NCBI GenBank assembly: GCA_028712475.1 | Contig: JAQTQB010000005.1 | Span: 107,408-171,407 of the forward strand | Source of the DNA: Verrucomicrobiales bacterium | GTDB lineage: Bacteria; Verrucomicrobiota; Verrucomicrobiia; Limisphaerales; UBA11358 | Direction of reading: 5' to 3' | Length of the DNA: 64,000 bases | Shown here: one piece after another, positions 28,774-41,169 of the stretch | Layout of the letters: the number at the start of each line of letters is the position of its first letter | Numbering within the stretch: position 1 is the stretch's first letter | Position numbers and translations under genes: made by a program | The notes under the pieces: model-generated | What the model was told of the DNA's origin: nothing | Databases searched by the model: none | Seen by the model: the letters and a program-made list of their open reading frames with translations, nothing else

Positions 28774-29529
28774 TCAGAGATATTGTTGAATTGTTTGCTC
28801 ATCACCCGTGGTTCCGAGGAAATACAGTTTGTCACCCTGGATCCAGGTCGCCGTCATCAGCCGGTTGACTTTGGAAAACTGTGGAGCCGGCCCGGCGGAT
28901 GATTTTTTCAAGGAAGTCCGGTCAACAACAAACAGCCAGATGTCGCTCGAAACATCAGGCGCGGCCTGACTGGAGCGAAAACAAATCATGGAGACTTTCA
29001 CGCCCTGCCAGCCTTCGACCGCGCAGCCGGCCAGGCTCACCTGCTTGAGCTTTTCCGGCAAAATAAAATCTGCCGGCGCATCATGTTGCGCGAGATAGGC
29101 GCGGATCACCGCCGGATCATTCGTCACTACGTCCATCGCATAGCCGCGCAACGCCACGCCCGCCATCTGGTTTTGGTAAATGTCCAATGTGTCGTCATCA
29201 GCACGATGTGGAAACCAGAATACCACCAGCGCTCCAAACAGCAGGATGATGGCCGCCGCCGCCGCGAACTGGATTTTCTGCCGCATTAAAATTCTTCTTT
29301 CACTCGCCAACTGTTCGGAAATGATTTGTTCCTTCAGTCCGGCGGGCGCGGTGATCTGGCGGAATTTTTCGCGCAGCACAAACTGCCGCGCGCAGTGCAT
29401 CACCAGCCAGTCCTTCAATTCCGTGTCGCGTTCGGCCAGCGCGAGCGCTGCGGCGATTTGCGGGTCGTCCGCGTCCGCCGTGCCGTGCCGGTAGAGGAGC
29501 AAAATGTTTTTGGCTTCGTCGCGATTCAC
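28774..29529 (-). CDS. Membrane-bound anti-sigma-like protein
   Basis: The 251-residue protein has a cytoplasmic N-terminus of about 80 residues (MNRDEAKNILLLYRHGTADA; 'RDTELKDWLVMHCARQFVL'), one membrane helix at about 86-106 (FAAAAAIILLFGALVVFWF) and a periplasmic domain of about 145 residues containing two Cys. Its ATG overlaps the stop of the ECF sigma gene by 4 bases. This layout is that of transmembrane anti-sigma factors, which bind the sigma factor until a periplasmic signal arrives. No classical zinc anti-sigma motif (H-x3-C-x2-C) is visible, so the binding mode is inferred from context. Confidence 0.72.
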   Translation of the reverse strand: MNRDEAKNILLLYRHGTADADDPQIAAALALAERDTELKDWLVMHCARQFVLREKFRQITAPAGLKEQIISEQLASERRILMRQKIQFAAAAAIILLFGALVVFWFPHRADDDTLDIYQNQMAGVALRGYAMDVVTNDPAVIRAYLAQHDAPADFILPEKLKQVSLAGCAVEGWQGVKVSMICFRSSQAAPDVSSDIWLFVVDRTSLKKSSAGPAPQFSKVNRLMTATWIQGDKLYFLGTTGDEQTIQQYL

Positions 29530-30047
29530 AAATTTGTTGGTTTCGGTGGTTCCATTGTTTCGCCGGTCAAAAGCTGGTGCAAACGCCCAAGCCCGCGGGC
29601 CAGCCGCGATTTGACCGTCCCGAGCGGCACCTCAAGGACTGCGGCGATTTCGTTGTAGGAACAATCCTGCAAATAAAACAAGGCGACGGGCGCCTGATAC
29701 ACTTCGTCCAGTTGTGCCAGCGCAACCAGCGCCTGCGCCGCGTCGAGGCGATTGACTGTGGGGGGCGATACCACGGGCAACTCCGCCGCCGCGTGTTCCA
29801 GCTCGACGTGCGGAAAGCGCTTTCGTTTCCGGCACCAGCCGAGAAATTCGCGGTGCAATGTGGTGAACAGCCAGGTTTTCACTTTCGTTATGTCGCGCAA
29901 TTGATGGCCTTTGTTGGCCCAGATGCAAAAAACCTGTTGCACAAGGTCGCAGGCATCCGCCTCGTCGCGCGTGAGGCTGAAGGCGAATTGATACAGCGGC
30001 TCGTAATAACGAGCCACCAGACTTTCAAAATCCATTCCTTCAGCCAT
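29526..30047 (-). CDS. ECF-family RNA polymerase sigma factor
   Basis: The 173-residue protein has region 2 ('YEPLYQFAFSLTRDEADACD' then 'LVQQVFCIWANKGHQLRDI' and 'KTWLFTTLHREFLGWCRKR') and region 4 ('LDEVYQAPVALFYLQDCSYN' and 'EIAAVLEVPLGTVKSRLARG', the helix-turn-helix that reads the -35 element). It lacks region 3, as ECF sigmas do. It is translationally coupled to the anti-sigma-like gene and divergent from the cupredoxin/cytochrome cluster. A GGAACAAA-N15-TCTCAC promoter-like sequence precedes it and a matched one precedes the cupredoxin gene, suggesting autoregulation and control of that cluster. Confidence 0.93.
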   Translation of the reverse strand: MAEGMDFESLVARYYEPLYQFAFSLTRDEADACDLVQQVFCIWANKGHQLRDITKVKTWLFTTLHREFLGWCRKRKRFPHVELEHAAAELPVVSPPTVNRLDAAQALVALAQLDEVYQAPVALFYLQDCSYNEIAAVLEVPLGTVKSRLARGLGRLHQLLTGETMEPPKPTNL

Positions 30048-30062
30048 ATCGAGTCATCAACA

Positions 30063-30091
30063 GTGAGAGGCAATAAAACAACATTTGTTCC
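30063..30091 (-). promoter_or_regulatory. Putative ECF promoter of the sigma/anti-sigma operon
   Basis: On the minus strand GGAACAAA (30091-30084) and TCTCAC (30068-30063) are separated by 15 bases and end 16 bases before the sigma ATG. GGAAC is the commonest ECF -35 element. The plus-strand counterpart at 30118-30146 has the same 8-mer and spacing. Confidence 0.6.
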
Positions 30092-30117
30092 AACGAAATA
30101 CGAGCTTGAATTTGCCG

Positions 30118-30146
30118 GGAACAAAATTCACACCCGCGACTCTAAC
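30118..30146 (+). promoter_or_regulatory. Putative ECF promoter of the cupredoxin-cytochrome cluster
   Basis: GGAACAAA (30118-30125) and TCTAAC (30141-30146) are separated by 15 bases, 34 bases upstream of the cupredoxin ATG. It is arranged divergently to an almost identical promoter-like site for the sigma gene. Confidence 0.6.
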
Positions 30147-30180
30147 AAGAGGAAAACATAAAACATATACGACCTTCTCT

Positions 30181-31014
30181 ATGAAAAACTGCATATCGGC
30201 CACCATTGTGGCAATTTTCCTTGGCCTTGCACCCTCTGATTTTGCAGCCACAGCCACGGTTCAAGCTGGCTCTGGTGGCAATATATTCACGCCCGCAACA
30301 ACCAACATCAACGTCGGCGACCGGGTTATCTGGGTCTGGAGCGGCCTGAACCACTCCTCTACCAGTGATACTGCAGGATTGTGGGATTCCGGCGTTTTCA
30401 ATGCGCCCCATTCGTTCACCAACCAGTTCAATGCATCCGGCACCTTTCCCTATCATTGCACGATTCACGTCAGCTTTGGGATGACAGGCTCGATCATTGT
30501 CGCCGCACCCAATTCACCGCCCAGCGTCACAATCACCAATCCGGCGTCCGGCACTGTCTTGGCCGCGCCCGCCAACGTGACCATTCAAGCCTCGGCCACT
30601 GACGACGGCACCGTGACCAATGTTCAATTTCTGGTCGGCTCGACGGTTTTAACCAATAAGGCAGCGGCTCCATTTTTCGCCGTGACCAATAATTTGGCGG
30701 CGGGGAATTACACGCTATCAGCCATTGCTTCGGACAACCTTGGGGCAAAAGCCACCAACGCGGTGAACATCAGCGTCGTCACGCCGCTGGCGCTGGTCAT
30801 CAGCGCTCCGCAATTATTGGCCGCAAGTTTTCAGTTCAATTACTCTGCCAATACCGGGTTGACTTACATCGTCCAACGATCCACCAATCTCGCCGTGCCT
30901 GATTGGATTTCCATGGTCACGAACACGGCGGCGAGCAACCCCGTGGTCTTCGTGGACAGCCAGGCAACGAACAGCCCCGGATTTTACCGCGTCGGACGGC
31001 TGCCAAACCCATGA
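30181..31014 (+). CDS. Secreted cupredoxin with Ig-like domain
   Basis: The 277-residue product has a signal peptide (residues 1-23) and a plastocyanin-like domain with type-1 copper ligands His58 ('GLNHSS'), Cys93 and His96 ('YHCTIH') and Met101 ('SFGM'). A bacterial Ig-like domain follows at about 110-205 ('PPSVTITNPASGTVLAAP', 'VTNVQFLVGSTVLTN'). The C-terminus (TYIVQRSTNLAVPDWISM ... FYRVGRL) is a tail often seen on verrucomicrobial exported proteins. Copper ligands are complete, so it is likely an electron carrier or copper store outside the inner membrane. It heads a tight four-gene cluster with copper and heme proteins. Confidence 0.88.
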   Translation: MKNCISATIVAIFLGLAPSDFAATATVQAGSGGNIFTPATTNINVGDRVIWVWSGLNHSSTSDTAGLWDSGVFNAPHSFTNQFNASGTFPYHCTIHVSFGMTGSIIVAAPNSPPSVTITNPASGTVLAAPANVTIQASATDDGTVTNVQFLVGSTVLTNKAAAPFFAVTNNLAAGNYTLSAIASDNLGAKATNAVNISVVTPLALVISAPQLLAASFQFNYSANTGLTYIVQRSTNLAVPDWISMVTNTAASNPVVFVDSQATNSPGFYRVGRLPNP

Positions 31015-31036
31015 CCGGTCGCTGGAGATTTTGAAT

Positions 31037-31942
31037 ATGCGGGCGTGGCAATTGGGCTTAAGCACAGGGTTGTGCTGTATGCTGATTTCGTTCAACACGA
31101 GAGCGGCGGTGGAATTGTCCCTCGCCAAAACCAATGTCACGGCGCGCGCCTTCATGGTCAGGGGCATTGTCACAGAACTTAAACCCGATGGGCGGACAAT
31201 TGTCATCCGGCACGAAGCCATCTCCAATTACATGGCCGCCATGACCATGCCGTTCAAGGTCAAAGAGCCGGACGAACTTGTGGGACTAAAAGCCGGCGAC
31301 AAAATTTCCTTCCGGCTGCAAGTGACGGAAACGGAAAGCTGGGTGGATCAAATCGCGAATATCGGAACCGCTCCCGTGCCGCAAAATCCGCCGGCCGTTC
31401 CGCCTGCAAAAAAAGCTGCCGCCCATCCGTTGCTCGATTACAAGTTCACCAATGAACTGGGGCGGGCCGTGAGCATCAACGATTTTCACGGCCAGGCGCT
31501 CGCCATCACCTTTTTTTTCACCCGTTGTCCGCTGCCGGAATTTTGCCCGCGCCTGTCAAAGAACTTTTCGGAGGCGTCGCTCAAATTAAAATCCCAAACC
31601 AACGCCCCCGCCAACTGGCATTTCCTTTCCATCACCTTCGACCCGGAATTTGATTCGCCCGCGATGCTCAAAGCCTACGGCGAAAGTTATCAATATGACC
31701 CTGAACATTGGAGTTTCCTGACCGGGCCGACGAATGAAATCAGTGAACTTGCCAGTCAGTCTGGCGTGGTTGTAGAATCCGATGACGGCTCTCTGAACCA
31801 CAATTTTCGCACACTGATCATTGATGCGACCGGCCATTTGCAGATCGTTTTCCCGACCGGCGGAGATTTATCGGACGCCATCGTCAGTGAAATAATCAAG
31901 GCCGCCGCCACAACAAACCAGCCAGCCATGCAAAGCCGGTGA
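31037..31942 (+). CDS. CusF-like and SCO1/SenC fusion protein (copper chaperone)
   Basis: The 301-residue product has a signal peptide, a CusF-like domain at about 38-110 with metal residues His59, Met66, Met69 and Met71 ('RHEAISNYMAAMTMPF'), and a SCO1/SenC thioredoxin-fold domain at about 130-300. SCO copper ligands are Cys164 and Cys170 in 'TRCPLPEFCPRLS' (C-x5-C instead of the usual C-x3-C) and His255 in 'SLNHNFRTLIID'. SCO proteins assemble copper centres, classically CuA of cytochrome oxidase, or act as thiol-redox proteins. No oxidase genes are nearby. The stop overlaps the GTG of the cytochrome gene by 4 bases. The start at 31037 is the second in-frame codon option (a TTG lies at 31031). 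Confidence 0.9.
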   Translation: MRAWQLGLSTGLCCMLISFNTRAAVELSLAKTNVTARAFMVRGIVTELKPDGRTIVIRHEAISNYMAAMTMPFKVKEPDELVGLKAGDKISFRLQVTETESWVDQIANIGTAPVPQNPPAVPPAKKAAAHPLLDYKFTNELGRAVSINDFHGQALAITFFFTRCPLPEFCPRLSKNFSEASLKLKSQTNAPANWHFLSITFDPEFDSPAMLKAYGESYQYDPEHWSFLTGPTNEISELASQSGVVVESDDGSLNHNFRTLIIDATGHLQIVFPTGGDLSDAIVSEIIKAAATTNQPAMQSR

Positions 31943-32730
31943 ATCTAAAACGAACATGGGGCGTGGTGCTGGCGACCGGCCTGTCCGCCTGCGCCGCGCT
32001 CGTTTTGATTTCGTGCTCCACCACGCCGGGTTCGGTGATGGTGCCGCTGGAAATTCCCGGCGCGCACTACGTCGGCAATAAAACCTGCGCGGATTGCCAT
32101 AAAGATATTGTCCGAAAATTCCCCGCCAGCCCGCACGCGCGGGTTCATTTTGCCGATGCGGCGATGGTTGGCCAGACCGGCTGCGAATCCTGTCACGGCC
32201 CCGGCAGCAAACACATCGAGTCCGGCGGCGGCGCGAAATTCATCATCAATCCGCGCAATGACCCGGCGTCCTGTTTTCAGTGCCACCTCGACGTTCAGGC
32301 GGAATTTAATTTGCCGCAGCATCATCCGGTCATTGAGGGCCACATGAGCTGCGTGCAATGCCACGACCCGCATGGTGGCGATATTTTCAAGCCGGCGGGC
32401 GGACTGGCCATGGCGCGGCAAAATGAAAGCTGCGCGCAATGCCATCGCGACCAGACGCGCCCGTTTGTGTTTGAACACAAGGCGATGCGTGAAGGCTGCA
32501 CCATCTGTCACAGCCCGCACGGTTCGATCAACCAGAAAATGCTCGTCGAGAGCGACCCGAATCTTTGCCTGCGCTGCCACTCGCAGGTTCAGGGCCCAAA
32601 CGTTCCTCGCGGGCATCTTTTCATAGGCAACACCGATCACACGACGTTTCTGCAAATCGGCACCTGCTGGGCGTCCGGCTGCCATACGGCGATTCACGGC
32701 TCAAACGTGGATCCGCGTTGGAGGTATTGA
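31939..32730 (+). CDS. Multiheme c-type cytochrome (MtrA/DmsE-like), lipoprotein
   Basis: The 263-residue product has a lipoprotein-type signal (LVLIS then Cys26) and seven C-x2-C-H heme sites: CADCH, CESCH, CFQCH, CVQCH, CAQCH, CTICH and CLRCH. An eighth, atypical site is C-x4-C-H (CWASGCH, residues 243-249). Extra His residues could serve as distal ligands. The final 'IHGSN' is the ending I associate with MtrA/DmsE-type periplasmic cytochromes that sit in the mouth of an outer-membrane porin. It starts with GTG in the stop of the SCO gene and is followed 19 bases later by a beta-barrel gene, the classic pairing of porin-cytochrome conduits. Confidence 0.9.
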   Translation: MNLKRTWGVVLATGLSACAALVLISCSTTPGSVMVPLEIPGAHYVGNKTCADCHKDIVRKFPASPHARVHFADAAMVGQTGCESCHGPGSKHIESGGGAKFIINPRNDPASCFQCHLDVQAEFNLPQHHPVIEGHMSCVQCHDPHGGDIFKPAGGLAMARQNESCAQCHRDQTRPFVFEHKAMREGCTICHSPHGSINQKMLVESDPNLCLRCHSQVQGPNVPRGHLFIGNTDHTTFLQIGTCWASGCHTAIHGSNVDPRWRY

Positions 32731-32749: not shown

Positions 32750-35119
32750 ATGAAATTTCTTTCTTCAAATCAAGTCGGAGCAAATACATTATTCCTTTTG
32801 ACGCTTTGCCCGGCATTGGCAGCCGCCGAAATCCAGGAAAGCCCGCTTCCGCCGCCCGCAGATGTAAAAATTGAATTCGACCGCGACATCCGGCCCATTT
32901 TTGAAACAACCTGCATCCGTTGTCACGGGCCGGAGAAACCGAAGAGCCATTTCCGCCTCATCAACCGTGAATCCGCGCTCAAAGGCGGTGATGAAAACAC
33001 CAACGACATTGTTCCCGGTGACAGTTCCAAAAGTTTGCTCATCCATTATGTCGCGCGGCAGGTGCCGGACTTCGAGATGCCGCCGCCCGGCAAGGGAGAA
33101 CCGCTGACGCAGCAGCAGATCGGCCTGTTGCGCGCCTGGATTGATCAGGGCGCGGACTGGAGCACGACGAATCAATTGCCGCAACCGGTCCTGACTTTCG
33201 CGCCGACGCTTCGCTGGATTGATGTGCGGGGCAACACATCAAAATTCCGTGAACTCGAAGGCGTGAACAATGGATTTTCGGGCGGCGTGGAACAATTTTC
33301 GTTCATGCAACAAACGAGCCCCGATGAAAAAATGTCCCTGACCGGGCATTTTATTGTTCCCATCCAGGATTTGGAATTGAAGCTTGCCGTGGATGAAACC
33401 GGCCTCGGCTTTGTCCACGCCGGCTTCTCTGAATGGCGGAAATATTATAATGACACCGGCGGCTATAATCCAACGGTGGCTCCGTCGGAATTCAATCTGA
33501 ATCGTGATCTGTATGTGGACAATGGCCGCGTCTGGATTGATTTCGGCCTGGCTTTGCCGCGCCGCCCGCAAATTGTGCTCGGTTATGAATACCAGTTCAA
33601 AAACGGCAACAAATCAATGCTGGACTGGGGTTACGCGAACGGGAAAGACATCTATCCGGCGACGCTCGCGGTGGACGAGCAGGCGAACATAATCAAGCTT
33701 GATGTGACGCACGATTTAAACGGCTGGCATCTGGAGGACAACGCGCGCGTCGAGTTTTACAGCGAGAAAAATACCAGCGCGGAATCGCAAATTCTGTTTG
33801 GCGGCACTTCGCCGGACACCTTCATCAACACGCGGGACAATTATCATTCCACGCAGGGCATGAACACGCTGGCGCTGGAAAAGCAAATGCGCGACTGGTG
33901 GTTTGTGTCCGGCGGCTTTTACTATTCGAAGCTGGAAGGCAGCGATTTTTTCAACCAGACCACCGCCATCCCGGTGTTTAATATCAACAATTCATTGAGC
34001 AGCTCGCAGATAACGCTTCGCCGGGAGTCGGAACTTTTCAGCGTGGCCAGCTTGTTCACGCCGCTGGAATATCTGGCCTTTTCGCTCGGCTCACAAAACG
34101 AATGGACGACTGAAGATGGATTCGGGAACAGCATTCCCGACCTTGATCTGGGTGTGAACACGCCAGCCGATTCAAACTTGAACCTTTTTAAGGCGAGCCA
34201 GAATGCGAATCTGCGTTTCACAAAAATCCCGTTCACCGTTCTTTTCGCCGACGCAAGGTTCGAGCAGGAAAGCGCCAACGAATTTCAACAGAAAAACGGC
34301 GATGAATTCATGAACCAGAACGACGCCATGAACCATCGCTACAATGTTCAGACCGGTTTCAACACGTCGCCCTGGCGTTGGGCGGCCTTGAGCGCGCAGT
34401 ATCAATATCAGACCAGCGACACCGACTACAACAATCCCACCGACGTGGTTTTCGGCAATTCCAGTGCGACGAATGGTTATCCGGGATTCATTCTCAACCG
34501 CAAAATCCAGACCGACAAGTTTGAAACAAAGCTCGATCTGCGTCCGGCGAACTGGCTGAAAACTACGCTGACCTATCAGATCACCGGCACGGATTATTCG
34601 TCCAAGACCGATCCGGCCTACGGTTTTGACACGGCGTTGAATCAATTTGTCGCTTTGCCCGGCGGGCCGATCACGGACGGACATTACAACGCCCAGACCT
34701 ATGGCATAAGCACCACGCTCACCCCGATCCAGCGATTATATTTGTATGCCGCGTTCACTTACAGCCAGTCGCGCGCGACCACGGCCAGCAACGGCGATCC
34801 GTCCATCGTGCCTTACGACGGAAACATCTACACGCTCATCACCACGGCGACCTATGCGTTGAACGCGAAAACCAGCCTGCAAACCAGCTATACTTTTTCG
34901 CAGGCTGATTACGCGGAAAACAACGCGGCGGCGGGAATACCGCTGGGACTGAATTTCACCCGCAATGAATTGCTCGTCGGCCTGACGCGCCAGATCAACA
35001 AGCGCCTCACCGGCGTGTTGCGCTACCAATTCTCCCAATACTCCGAACCGAGCAGCAACAACGCGAACAACTTCACCGCGCACGGCATCTTTGCGACCTT
35101 CGTTTACAAATGGCCGTAG
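32750..35119 (+). CDS. Outer-membrane beta-barrel fused to an N-terminal cytochrome c domain (MtrB/PioB-like)
   Basis: The 789-residue protein has a signal peptide (about 1-26), then a single-heme domain with 'ETTCIRCHGPEKPKSHFRL' (Cys55, Cys58, His59) and a likely distal Met110 in 'DFEMPPPGKG', matching the planctomycete cytochrome C (PSCyt1) family. From about residue 160 to the end it consists of alternating strand-like segments with aromatic girdles ('WWFVSGGFYYSKLEG', 'LYLYAAFTYSQSR', 'LTGVLRYQFSQYSEP') and ends 'GIFATFVYKWP', typical of an outer-membrane barrel. Together with the preceding multiheme cytochrome it resembles MtrAB/PioAB systems. Fusion of a heme domain to the barrel is unusual. 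Barrel identity as MtrB/PioB is inferred from context and strand pattern. Confidence 0.8.
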   Translation: MKFLSSNQVGANTLFLLTLCPALAAAEIQESPLPPPADVKIEFDRDIRPIFETTCIRCHGPEKPKSHFRLINRESALKGGDENTNDIVPGDSSKSLLIHYVARQVPDFEMPPPGKGEPLTQQQIGLLRAWIDQGADWSTTNQLPQPVLTFAPTLRWIDVRGNTSKFRELEGVNNGFSGGVEQFSFMQQTSPDEKMSLTGHFIVPIQDLELKLAVDETGLGFVHAGFSEWRKYYNDTGGYNPTVAPSEFNLNRDLYVDNGRVWIDFGLALPRRPQIVLGYEYQFKNGNKSMLDWGYANGKDIYPATLAVDEQANIIKLDVTHDLNGWHLEDNARVEFYSEKNTSAESQILFGGTSPDTFINTRDNYHSTQGMNTLALEKQMRDWWFVSGGFYYSKLEGSDFFNQTTAIPVFNINNSLSSSQITLRRESELFSVASLFTPLEYLAFSLGSQNEWTTEDGFGNSIPDLDLGVNTPADSNLNLFKASQNANLRFTKIPFTVLFADARFEQESANEFQQKNGDEFMNQNDAMNHRYNVQTGFNTSPWRWAALSAQYQYQTSDTDYNNPTDVVFGNSSATNGYPGFILNRKIQTDKFETKLDLRPANWLKTTLTYQITGTDYSSKTDPAYGFDTALNQFVALPGGPITDGHYNAQTYGISTTLTPIQRLYLYAAFTYSQSRATTASNGDPSIVPYDGNIYTLITTATYALNAKTSLQTSYTFSQADYAENNAAAGIPLGLNFTRNELLVGLTRQINKRLTGVLRYQFSQYSEPSSNNANNFTAHGIFATFVYKWP

Positions 35120-37991: not shown

Positions 37992-39146
37992 ATGAGTTAC
38001 CGAACCACCAAACGTCCCGCAAAAAGCGAAAGGCTCCGCGAAGAACCCGTTGCCTACCACACAAACGGCAATGGCAGGCATGGCAAACCAAAGTTCATTG
38101 ACCTCTTCTGCGGCATCGGCGGATTTCGCTTCGCATTTGAAAAAGCAGGCTGCGAATGCGTGTTCTCATCCGACTGGAACAAATACGCGAAGATCACCTA
38201 TGAGGCGAATTTCGGCGAGAAGCCATTCGGCGACATTCATTCGGTGGCGGTGGCGAATATTCCGGCGCACGACATTCTTTGCGCCGGATTTCCCTGCCAG
38301 CCGTTCAGCATCGCAGGCGTCTCCAAGAAATTGAGCCTCGGCAAAGCGCACGGCTTTGACGACAAAGAGCAAGGCAACCTGTTCTTTTCACTGGCGGAAA
38401 TCATCGAATTCCATCAGCCCGCCGCGTTTGTGCTGGAGAACGTGAAGAACCTCAAGAGCCACGACCAGGGCCGGACGTTTCAAATCATCCGCAACACGCT
38501 CACCGATGCGCTCGGCTATCACCTCCACACGGCGGTCATTGACGCGCAAAGCGTGGTGCCGCAGCACCGCGAACGCATCTTTCTCGTCGGCTTCAAGGAG
38601 CGGCGCGCGTTTGAATTCCCGGAATTCCCGGCGGCAGGGCCGAAACTCGAATCCATCCTTGAAACCGATGTCTCGGACAAATACACGCTGTCCAACCATC
38701 TTTGGAAATATCTTCAAGATTACGCGGCCAAACACAGAGCGGCAGGAAATGGTTTTGGTTTTGGATTGGTCACAGGCAAGGACACGTCCCGGACTTTGAG
38801 CGCGCGTTATTACAAAGACGGTTCGGAAATTTTGATTTCACAAGGCCCGCGAAAGAACCCACGCCGCCTGACGCCGCGTGAATGCGCAAGGCTCATGGGC
38901 TATCCGAAAGATTTCAAAATTCCAGTCTCCGATACGCAAGCCTACAAACAGTTCGGCAATTCAGTCGTCGTTCCCGTTGTTGAACGTGTTGCAAAAGCTG
39001 TCGTGTCAACATTGCAACACCCGGTTGATTACAAGCCTGAACTTGCTCTTGCGGCAAACGACAAAGAAAATAAAAAAACTGCAACCCGGATTGCGGAATC
39101 GGTGAGCTATTTCAAGACCAAGAAGCGGCGAAAGGAATCAGCATGA
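37992..39146 (+). CDS. dcm: DNA (cytosine-5)-methyltransferase of a CCWGG-type restriction-modification system
   Basis: The 384-residue enzyme shows the ordered motifs of C5-methyltransferases: I '[15 protein letters not shown]', IV 'GFPCQPFS' with catalytic Cys102, VI 'FVLENVKNL', VIII '[11 protein letters not shown]', IX '[15 protein letters not shown]' and X '[10 protein letters not shown]'. It uses S-adenosylmethionine to methylate cytosine. Target specificity is inferred as CCWGG from the EcoRII-type endonuclease encoded next and the Vsr gene beyond. The stop overlaps the endonuclease ATG (ATGA). It begins 119 bases from the divergent hrpB. The symbol is given for the Dcm family. Confidence 0.93.
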
Positions 39147-40336
39147 ATCTATCAGCAATCTTCAGCCAGGTGGCTCATAAGCGACTTGTTAAAGTCGACC
39201 TTCCTAAAAGGGGTTCAAACCAGCACGAATTCAATGGTGTAAGCGCACTGAAAACATTTTTTGGAACGAATAAAAAAATTCAGGGTTCACTGCACTGGCA
39301 TTATTTCGGGGACGATCAAGAGCCAGCCCAAGAGGACAATAAATTTACTTTTTATGATGCCCGCGCCAAGAGCAACGAACAAACAGGCAGATCGGAGTGG
39401 CGGTTTTATTATTACGGAAGTTTCCTAGCCCGTGTGGGGGTCGGTGATTGGTTTGTTCTCGCAAAAGCCAAATCGGGACAATTATTCGCCTTAGTCTTTC
39501 AGTGCAATTCAGGATGGGAGCGCGCGGCACACAGCCTTTTCGGTGTCAGTCCTTCCAAAACTTCTTTTGATTCGATTCGGCAGGAGACTTTAGATTCACA
39601 AAGGATTGATCTGCTTCAACGTCAGATTCTTGCTGAATTGGATTTGGAAGTGACTGTGCCAGTCGTTGCGAATGACGAAGAGTTGATACTGCGCAAATTT
39701 GGCCGGACTTTTCCGACGACAAAAATCATGTCCGACTTTGCGCGAGAACAGACGCCGGTGGATTATAAGAAGCCTGATGAAGCGTTGGTGCGTTGGCTTG
39801 ACCGCGAGGAGGCGCTTTTCCGCGCAATGGAAAATGTCATCATCCGCGAGCGGTTGCAGAAAGGTTTTACCGGCGTGGACGACTTCATTGGTTATTCGCT
39901 TTCCGTGCAAAACCGCCGAAAGTCACGCATGGGTTTTGCGTTGCAGAATCATCTGGTGGAATTGTTCACCCGCCAAGGGCTGCGGTTCACGCCACAGGCG
40001 CGGACGGAGGCGAACAACAAGCCTGATTTCATATTTCCCGGCCAGCGGGAGTATCATGATGAGTCGTTTGACGCGGCGTTGCTGGTCATGCTTGGCGTGA
40101 AGTCCACGAGCAAAGACCGCTGGCGCCAGGTGCTGACTGAAGCTGACCGCATTCCAAAAAAACATCTTTGCACGCTCGAAGCCGGCATCTCCGTCAAGCA
40201 GACAGACGAAATGCAGCGGCAACAACTCACTCTTGTTGTGCCAACGGGTTTACATGCAACTTACACTCCGGCGCAACTTTCCGGGATGTTGAGCGTGACG
40301 GAATTCGTTGAATTTGTGAGACGGAAGCAATCGTAA
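39143..40336 (+). CDS. Type II restriction endonuclease, EcoRII-like
   Basis: The 397-residue product matches EcoRII in two parts. The N-terminal region (to about 170) has '[20 protein letters not shown]' and '[20 protein letters not shown]', as expected for the B3-like effector DNA-binding domain. The C-terminal catalytic domain has '[19 protein letters not shown]', '[17 protein letters not shown]' and '[20 protein letters not shown]', which hold the acidic and Lys/Arg residues of the PD-(D/E)XK-like active site. EcoRII is a Type IIE enzyme that cuts CCWGG after binding two sites. The gene is more AT-rich than its neighbours, as is common for mobile restriction systems. Confidence 0.9.
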
Positions 40337-40354
40337 TTTATTTTTACTTTTTTT

Positions 40355-40394
40355 CCTGGCAAGCGCCCGCAAACCTGGTAAACCAAATACCAGT
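40355..40394 (+). promoter_or_regulatory. Upstream region with two CCTGG sites and an inverted repeat
   Basis: CCTGG occurs at 40355-40359 and 40374-40378, 19 bases apart; both are CCWGG, the presumed target of the adjacent methyltransferase and endonuclease. The second overlaps an inverted repeat, CTGGTA-N7-TACCAG, that ends 2 bases before the ATG at 40395. Confidence 0.35.
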
Positions 40395-40766
40395 ATGAAT
40401 GAATTAATTTGTATTCCAAACAATCTGCGCTCTGCCGGACGTGAAATACGTCTCGCATTAAATCAACCGTTAAACCAACTCTCACATGGAACTTTTATCC
40501 GTGCATGGTGCAGCGTCTTTTATCTGTTTCCCGGCTTGCATCCTGACGGATTTGAAGCGGCCGACTGCGGCTGGCCGCGCGTCTTGAAACGCTTCGCCGC
40601 CGAAGCATGGCGGCGTGCCGAGGCTGGCGAACTGGCAGACGAGGAATTGTATTGCAGCGACGTCTCATGGTGCGGGCTTTACGACCGGATGCACACGCAT
40701 GAGCCAGATGAGATGGACCGGCGTCTCACACTGGCCGCTGATTATGGCGAGCCTTCAAATGTCTGA
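40395..40766 (+). CDS. Unknown 123-residue protein in the EcoRII locus
   Basis: The product is small, acidic overall and probably soluble, with a Trp/Cys-rich core ('IRAWCSVFYLFPGLHPDGFE', 'ADCGWPRVLKRFAAEAWRRA') and a C-terminal 'YCSDVSWCGLYDRMHTHEPD'. No helix-turn-helix, metal-binding or nuclease motif is recognised. It lies between the endonuclease (58-base gap) and vsr, and its stop overlaps the vsr ATG by 8 bases, so the two are probably translationally coupled. It may be an accessory or regulatory part of the restriction system or a passenger gene; sequence alone does not decide. Confidence 0.6.
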   Translation: MNELICIPNNLRSAGREIRLALNQPLNQLSHGTFIRAWCSVFYLFPGLHPDGFEAADCGWPRVLKRFAAEAWRRAEAGELADEELYCSDVSWCGLYDRMHTHEPDEMDRRLTLAADYGEPSNV

Positions 40767-41169
40767 CGTTTTCACCAAAGCCAAGCGGTCGGAAGTGATG
40801 TCGCGAATTCGCGGACGCGGCAACAAACACACGGAGCTGGCGCTGGCCAAATTGTTTCGTCGGAATAAAATCACCGGCTGGCGGCGGAATCAAAAGGTCT
40901 TCGGCAAGCCGGATTTCATTTTCCCCAAACTCAAGCTCGCCCTCTTCGTGGACGGTTGCTTCTGGCATGGCTGTCCCAAGCATGGAACCCAACCCAAAGG
41001 CAATCGCGCGTTCTGGAAAAAGAAGTTTGCCCGCAACATCGCCCGCGACCGGCTGGTGAACCGAGCCCTGCGGTCGGCCAACTGGCGGGTGTTGCGGATT
41101 TGGGAACACGAACTTACCCGCAAAAACGAAATTCATTTACTCAAGCGGATTCAACGGGTGATGAATTGA
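40759..41169 (+). CDS. vsr: Very short patch repair endonuclease
   Basis: The 136-residue product from the ATG at 40759 matches Vsr: 'EVMSRIRGRGNKHTELALAK', 'GKPDFIFPKLKLALFVDGCF' with 'WHGCPKH', 'NIARDRLVNRALRSANWRVL' and 'RIWEHEL'. Vsr nicks beside T:G mismatches that arise when 5-methylcytosine deaminates in CCWGG sites, so its presence fits a Dcm-type methyltransferase. Earlier in-frame ATGs would overlap the preceding gene more deeply and lack family similarity. It ends the restriction-modification cluster, 91 bases before mlaE. Confidence 0.93.
   Translation: MSDVFTKAKRSEVMSRIRGRGNKHTELALAKLFRRNKITGWRRNQKVFGKPDFIFPKLKLALFVDGCFWHGCPKHGTQPKGNRAFWKKKFARNIARDRLVNRALRSANWRVLRIWEHELTRKNEIHLLKRIQRVMN

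Follow-up and report, generated by a model that had tools for sequence, protein, structure and literature searches.

A single intergenic region of 133 bp in the window, by which we mean the whole stretch of 64,000 nucleotides analysed here, contains two divergent promoters of the sigmaE type. On the strength of sequence comparison and structural models, both very probably depend on the ECF sigma factor whose gene lies next to them, an arrangement that would combine autoregulation of the sigma factor with control of a cluster for an MtrAB-like electron conduit. The first-pass annotation had proposed that the local sigma factor drives its own operon as well as the divergent cupredoxin-SCO-cytochrome-porin cluster. 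This proposal is supported by the conservation of both sites and by a matrix from which the window was held out, and also by the co-occurrence of the motif with the sigma gene, by the co-occurrence and linkage of the sigma and porin genes, and by a match between the -35 element and the residue of the sigma factor that would read it.

The intergenic region extends from 30048 to 30180 and is flanked by the ATG of the sigma gene (30047, minus strand) and that of a cupredoxin gene (30181, plus strand). On the minus strand, positions 30091-30063 read GGAACAAA-TGTTGTTTTATTGCC-TCTCAC with a spacer of 15 nt. The predicted promoter of the sigma operon thereby consists of a -35 element, GGAACAAA, at 30084..30091, in which GGAAC is kept in orthologues, and a -10 element, TCTCAC, at 30063..30068, where the orthologue consensus is ACTCTTA(A/C) and the information content rises again. 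On the plus strand, positions 30118-30146 read GGAACAAA-ATTCACACCCGCGAC-TCTAAC, again with 15 nt between the elements, which places the -35 element of the predicted conduit-cluster promoter at 30118..30125 and its -10 element, assigned from its sequence and from the held-out matrix, at 30141..30146. The first-pass annotation was exact in its account of the two sites as to place, letters and spacing. A scan of the intergenic region for sigma70-type promoters found none. Two copies of the pattern GGAACAAA-N15-TCTNAC are present in the window and none in 100 shuffles, and a search of the genome for further copies, which had been suggested as a check, returned only these two in 3.4 Mb (29 contigs), the reversed-pattern control giving 0. 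The relaxed form GGAACAWW-N15-TCTHA again found only these two sites in the whole genome. If transcription starts are placed 6-8 nt past the -10 elements, the sigma gene would have a leader of about 8-10 nt and the cupredoxin gene one of about 25-30 nt. The short leader predicted for the sigma mRNA (29526-30068) contains no clear Shine-Dalgarno sequence.

The sigma gene (29526..30047, minus strand) encodes a protein of 173 aa in which Pfam recognizes Sigma70_r2 at residues 10-77 and r4_2 at 107-156. With sigma2 and sigma4 only, joined by a short linker, the product has the domain composition of the ECF family (group IV); ECF proteins are also its relatives in the PDB, and orthologues occur in related genomes. 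Overlapping its stop is a gene (28774..29529, minus strand) for a membrane protein of 251 aa, which neighbours the sigma gene in most orthologous loci. Based on this overlap and conserved adjacency, the co-encoded protein is probably the anti-sigma factor. Its AF2 model (pLDDT 93.6) shows helices at the N terminus, then a long helix containing the membrane span and finally a C-terminal domain, and the predicted topology, a single membrane pass with a cytosolic helical domain, is that of the RseA/RseB type. The six best structural matches of the C-terminal domain are all RseB/MucB, with Z values of 7.5-8.1, a Z of about 8 being borderline evidence for a shared arrangement, and in Foldseek RseB/MucB occupies ranks 1-7 (E from 2.7e-3). 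The periplasmic domain is thus likely to resemble the C-terminal domain of RseB/MucB, and the modelled fold suggests that the protein may sense an envelope signal through it. In Pfam the anti-sigma family gave no match to RseA or RseB and only weak matches to DUF3379 in 42 of 56 members; a search of the family against PDB sequences returned nothing, and hhalign detected no relation between the sigma and anti-sigma families, as expected.

The four genes on the plus side are tightly spaced, and we infer that they form one transcript. The first (30181..31014) encodes an exported cupredoxin of the plastocyanin/halocyanin kind with a Big_7 Ig domain (PF00127, PF17957) and the second (31031..31942) a CusF-SCO1 fusion, a probable copper chaperone (PF11604, PF02630). 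They are followed by a multihaem cytochrome of the MtrA/DmsE type, probably a lipoprotein (31939..32730; assigned by NCBIfam, alignment and its MtrA match), and by a 789-aa MtrB-like outer-membrane barrel with an N-terminal single-haem PSCyt1 domain (32750..35119; PF07635 and an AF2 model). An alignment of the cytochrome shows eight invariant haem motifs, seven CXXCH and one CX4CH, and the protein matches 6r2q_A with an E value of 1.2e-31. We take this chain to be MtrA. The model of the porin (pLDDT 77) is a barrel of about 26 strands, and its best match in the PDB is MtrB (6r2q_B, E 6.9e-15, TMq 0.54), the next match being at 1e-10. The sequence comparisons therefore point to an MtrA-homologous multihaem cytochrome, and the model to an MtrB-like large outer-membrane barrel encoded by the adjacent gene, which bears out the term "electron conduit" used in the first-pass annotation. 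Since there are eight haem motifs rather than the ten of the Shewanella complex, a number that is not common to every porin-cytochrome complex, we name the system MtrAB-like and do not consider it a strict member of the MtrAB group. The cluster most likely encodes a candidate conduit across the outer membrane, through which electrons could pass inward or outward. The same genome encodes a second MtrB-like porin (G000:C9:574225-576156), which is shorter and does not carry PSCyt1; porins of this short kind are found widely across the order. Further along the window, at 37992-41169, the translations suggest genes for a DNA cytosine methyltransferase and a Vsr-like endonuclease, with further genes between them.

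The distributions of the sigma factor, the porin and the motif were compared among relatives, which bear the label Limisphaerales or Verrucomicrobia subdivision 3 and several of which come from palsa and bog samples. Among 49 genomes of the genus, 17 possess both sigma and porin, eight the sigma only, one the porin only and 23 neither (Fisher 3e-6), and among 146 genomes of the order the sigma is present in 21 of the 24 with porins closest to that of the window, compared with 26 of the 122 others; these co-occurrence counts ignore shared ancestry, and some of the porin and sigma counts rest on incomplete genomes, many of the genomes being incomplete bins. Across the order, 13 of the 21 sigma-porin pairs lie within 12 kb of each other, and many genomes of the order hold a related porin without this sigma. 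The motif follows the sigma as well. GGAACAWW-N15-TCTHA occurs at 55 sites in the 25 sigma-positive genomes of the genus and at 6 in the 24 sigma-negative ones, about 30 of the 55 being at the sigma locus, which sigma-negative genomes cannot have. Away from this locus the numbers are 25 and 6 (p 6e-4). The reversed-pattern control found 16 and 17 sites in the same two sets of genomes, and many of the 25 off-locus sites may for this reason be due to chance.

Because eight sigma-positive genomes of the genus have no porin, the conduit is not the sole role of this sigma factor. In sigma-positive genomes where the porin is absent or is located elsewhere, the gene divergent from the sigma gene often encodes a dehydrogenase of the GSDH type with Ig domains (L104, L115, L121, L140 and L149). 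The L104 protein was the one used for the family search, and the other four were assigned from the likeness of their N-terminal sequences. These dehydrogenases have 850-880 aa and Big_7 domains. In L035 the divergent gene encodes a haem-binding protein. Such alternative targets, together with the likeness of the periplasmic domain to RseB, speak for a reading in which this is the motif of a general envelope-stress sigma, with the conduit cluster as one of several targets and a lineage-specific one. We consider this unlikely, although it deserves serious attention: the conduit cluster is the best conserved partner, and in the genome of the window a less strict pattern matched 13 times and its control 12 times, with no excess beyond the pair, a result by which a large genome-wide regulon was rejected.

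Two other sites in this genome merit description. A weak motif at C17:265786 (L211) lies 72-73 nt before the ATG of a type III polyketide synthase gene. It was found in five of 16 sigma-positive genomes and in one of 14 sigma-negative ones, a difference that is not significant (Fisher 0.18), and the synthase was rejected as a second target and left as a lead. A site at G000:C10:62085 (L207), outside the strict motif set, has a matrix score of 16.2 and is located 55 nt before a probable carboxy-terminal processing protease gene.

A second alternative accepts both promoters and assigns the one on the cluster side to another ECF sigma, so that the neighbouring sigma would read only its own. The genome has about 27 proteins with sigma region 4, and two other ECF factors, at C10:10266 (GTVRSR) and C17:107411 (GTVKSR), carry R or K at the base-reading residue and would be compatible with GGAAC; crosstalk among the ECF factors of this genome is therefore possible, judging from these residues. 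In addition, the -10 elements on the cluster side differ somewhat from the sigma-side consensus and are weaker in several relatives (CATCGCAA, CATCACAG). Against this reading, no motif was found upstream of the other ECF genes, among those with a readable recognition helix, and across families the sigma and porin genes occur together and are linked. A further argument comes from the -35 element itself. K146 of the window's sigma, within the sequence GTVKSR, corresponds in the alignment to the residue by which the fifth base of the -35 element is read; in solved or modelled complexes this residue (R171 in E. coli SigE, K170 or a neighbouring number in SigW, M170 in C. glutamicum SigH) faces the -31 base pair (PMC6713349, PMC11588781). 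Among the relatives, K or Q in GTV[K/Q/M]SR accompanies GGAAC in 57 of 57 cases and M accompanies GGAAT in 22 of 22. Moreover, the two sides of a locus share the base, with C on both sides in 38 loci, T on both sides in six and no mixture of C and T, while three more divergent-side matches have another base. That the GGAAT clade has T in the -35 elements of both sides also speaks against another ECF factor on the cluster side, and we regard this alternative as quite improbable. The tree requires only one or two switches of residue and base, so the match agrees with the known rule and does not prove it anew. Near the sigma genes of the GGAAT clade in L055 and L058 are genes whose exported products are small (79-80 aa), rich in cysteine and possibly metal-binding; Pfam gave no match for them.

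The conservation of the two sites bears on a third alternative, namely that the inverted repeat TTTGTTCC-N26-GGAACAAA is the operator of a dimeric transcription factor and not a pair of promoters. The 8-mers in the window do form a perfect inverted repeat, and the 26-nt distance between the arms recurs in several relatives. In 21 of 22 orthologues (L033-L054, >57% identity), GGAAC lies 42-47 nt upstream of the sigma ATG, mostly at exactly 44 nt, and is followed at a fixed spacing by a -10 element of the TC..A type. The information content is highest at the -35 and -10 elements and low in the spacer, and the expected start region of the sigma gene is partly conserved. This conserved GGAAC upstream of the gene is what would be predicted for an autoregulated promoter of the AAC type, a trait that is common but not universal in ECF factors. 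The sigma-side site is absent in L046 and in some distant loci.

To the cluster side we applied a matrix trained only on the sigma-side sites of other genomes, with the window excluded. With this matrix the window's cluster-side site scores 20.2, and most relatives have divergent sites as well. Scores above 12 number 75 over 656 kb, the training sites included, against 13 on the reversed sequence, which is a fair but simple control. In L039, L042 and L046, where the cluster is located elsewhere on the contig (moved or flipped), the motif accompanies it and is found at the start of the relocated cluster. Scores above 11 within 700 nt of the first recognized gene occur in 16 of 28 non-identical clusters, a tally whose background is real sequence that itself contains promoters, so that the reversed-sequence control is to be preferred.

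The geometry of these sites speaks against an operator. Across loci anything from 1 to 213 nt separates the two -35 elements, and yet each arm keeps its -10 element at 13 or 14 nt (130 of 131 sites, in a search that allowed 12 to 14). In addition, the arm on the sigma side holds its fixed distance from the ATG even where the second arm is missing. Since the arm distance varies widely while the spacing of -35 and -10 is fixed, a fixed inverted-repeat operator is rejected in favour of two promoters, and the operator reading as a whole is very improbable. Finally, that the similarity arose by chance and that there are no promoters here has a practically negligible probability and is refuted at the level of sequence by the shuffles, the reversed-pattern controls and the conservation in many genomes, with nothing found in its favour.

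As a whole, these results support the reading in which the neighbouring sigma serves both promoters. Comparison of genomes establishes the promoters as conserved elements, the association of sigma, motif and conduit and the match of residue to -35 base, and from these we infer that RNA polymerase carrying this sigma initiates at both sites. The cytosolic part of the membrane protein would keep the sigma inactive, and its RseB-like domain would sense a periplasmic or envelope signal. Inactivation of the anti-sigma would then free the sigma, which would raise its own level by positive autoregulation from the first promoter, that of the sigma/anti-sigma operon, and switch on the conduit genes from the second, that of the four-gene operon for the cupredoxin, the CusF-SCO copper chaperone, the MtrA-like cytochrome and the MtrB-like haem-porin. 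A more ambitious version, which we hold tentatively and with slightly more doubt than belief, is that this is a dedicated, self-amplifying ECF switch with the MtrAB-like conduit as its main conserved target across many Limisphaerales-type families, that a single-chain anti-sigma carries its own RseB-like envelope sensor, and that the conduit is made only upon an envelope or redox signal.

The conduits of uncultured Verrucomicrobiota have so far been proposed from gene content alone, and the promoter pair provides a first means of testing when they are produced. The motif may be used to find co-regulated genes, and the set of sigma, anti-sigma and promoters could be rebuilt in a laboratory strain. 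Further, the sister clades, with K or Q and GGAAC or with M and GGAAT, offer a natural test of the known rule of -35 recognition.

Each part of this system is of a known kind. What appear to be new, as judged from the open-access literature, are the pairing of a sigma factor with a conduit and the single-chain RseB-like anti-sigma; we found no ECF factor tied to porin-cytochrome clusters of this phylum in that literature. Verrucomicrobia clusters that combine a porin with multihaem cytochromes of eight haems were described by He et al. (2017), who proposed a role in extracellular electron transfer (PMC5615132). Going by their description, the present cluster resembles theirs in having a novel porin beside a periplasmic cytochrome with eight haem sites; it differs in its association with a sigma factor, a word that their text does not contain (PMC5615132). 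The likeness to Shewanella MtrAB (PDB 6R2Q) consists in the MtrA-homologous cytochrome and in the barrel of about 26 strands best matched by MtrB. In contrast to that complex, the present system has eight haem motifs instead of ten, a lipoprotein-type signal and a haem domain fused to the barrel, and its operon adds cupredoxin and CusF-SCO genes, while the cluster includes no gene for MtrC. With regard to the SigH/SigR-type ECF factors, which use a GGAAT -35 element, it is the sister clade that is similar, having M and GGAAT as does C. glutamicum SigH with M170 (PMC11588781), whereas K and GGAAC are found in the case of the window. CorE, the copper-dependent ECF factor of Myxococcus, is likewise tied to copper proteins and differs in being controlled by copper itself (PMC3107203). 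Close parallels are also the sigmaE-RseA-RseB system of E. coli and AlgU-MucA-MucB of Pseudomonas, which share with the present system the GGAAC -35 element, an autoregulated sigma/anti-sigma operon (here predicted) and a membrane partner with an RseB-like periplasmic fold (here modelled) (PMC8103513). Neither Pfam nor the PDB sequences revealed a likeness in sequence to RseA or RseB. The RseB-like domain is predicted to lie within the membrane protein and not in a separate protein, and the present system has a multihaem conduit as its main linked target.
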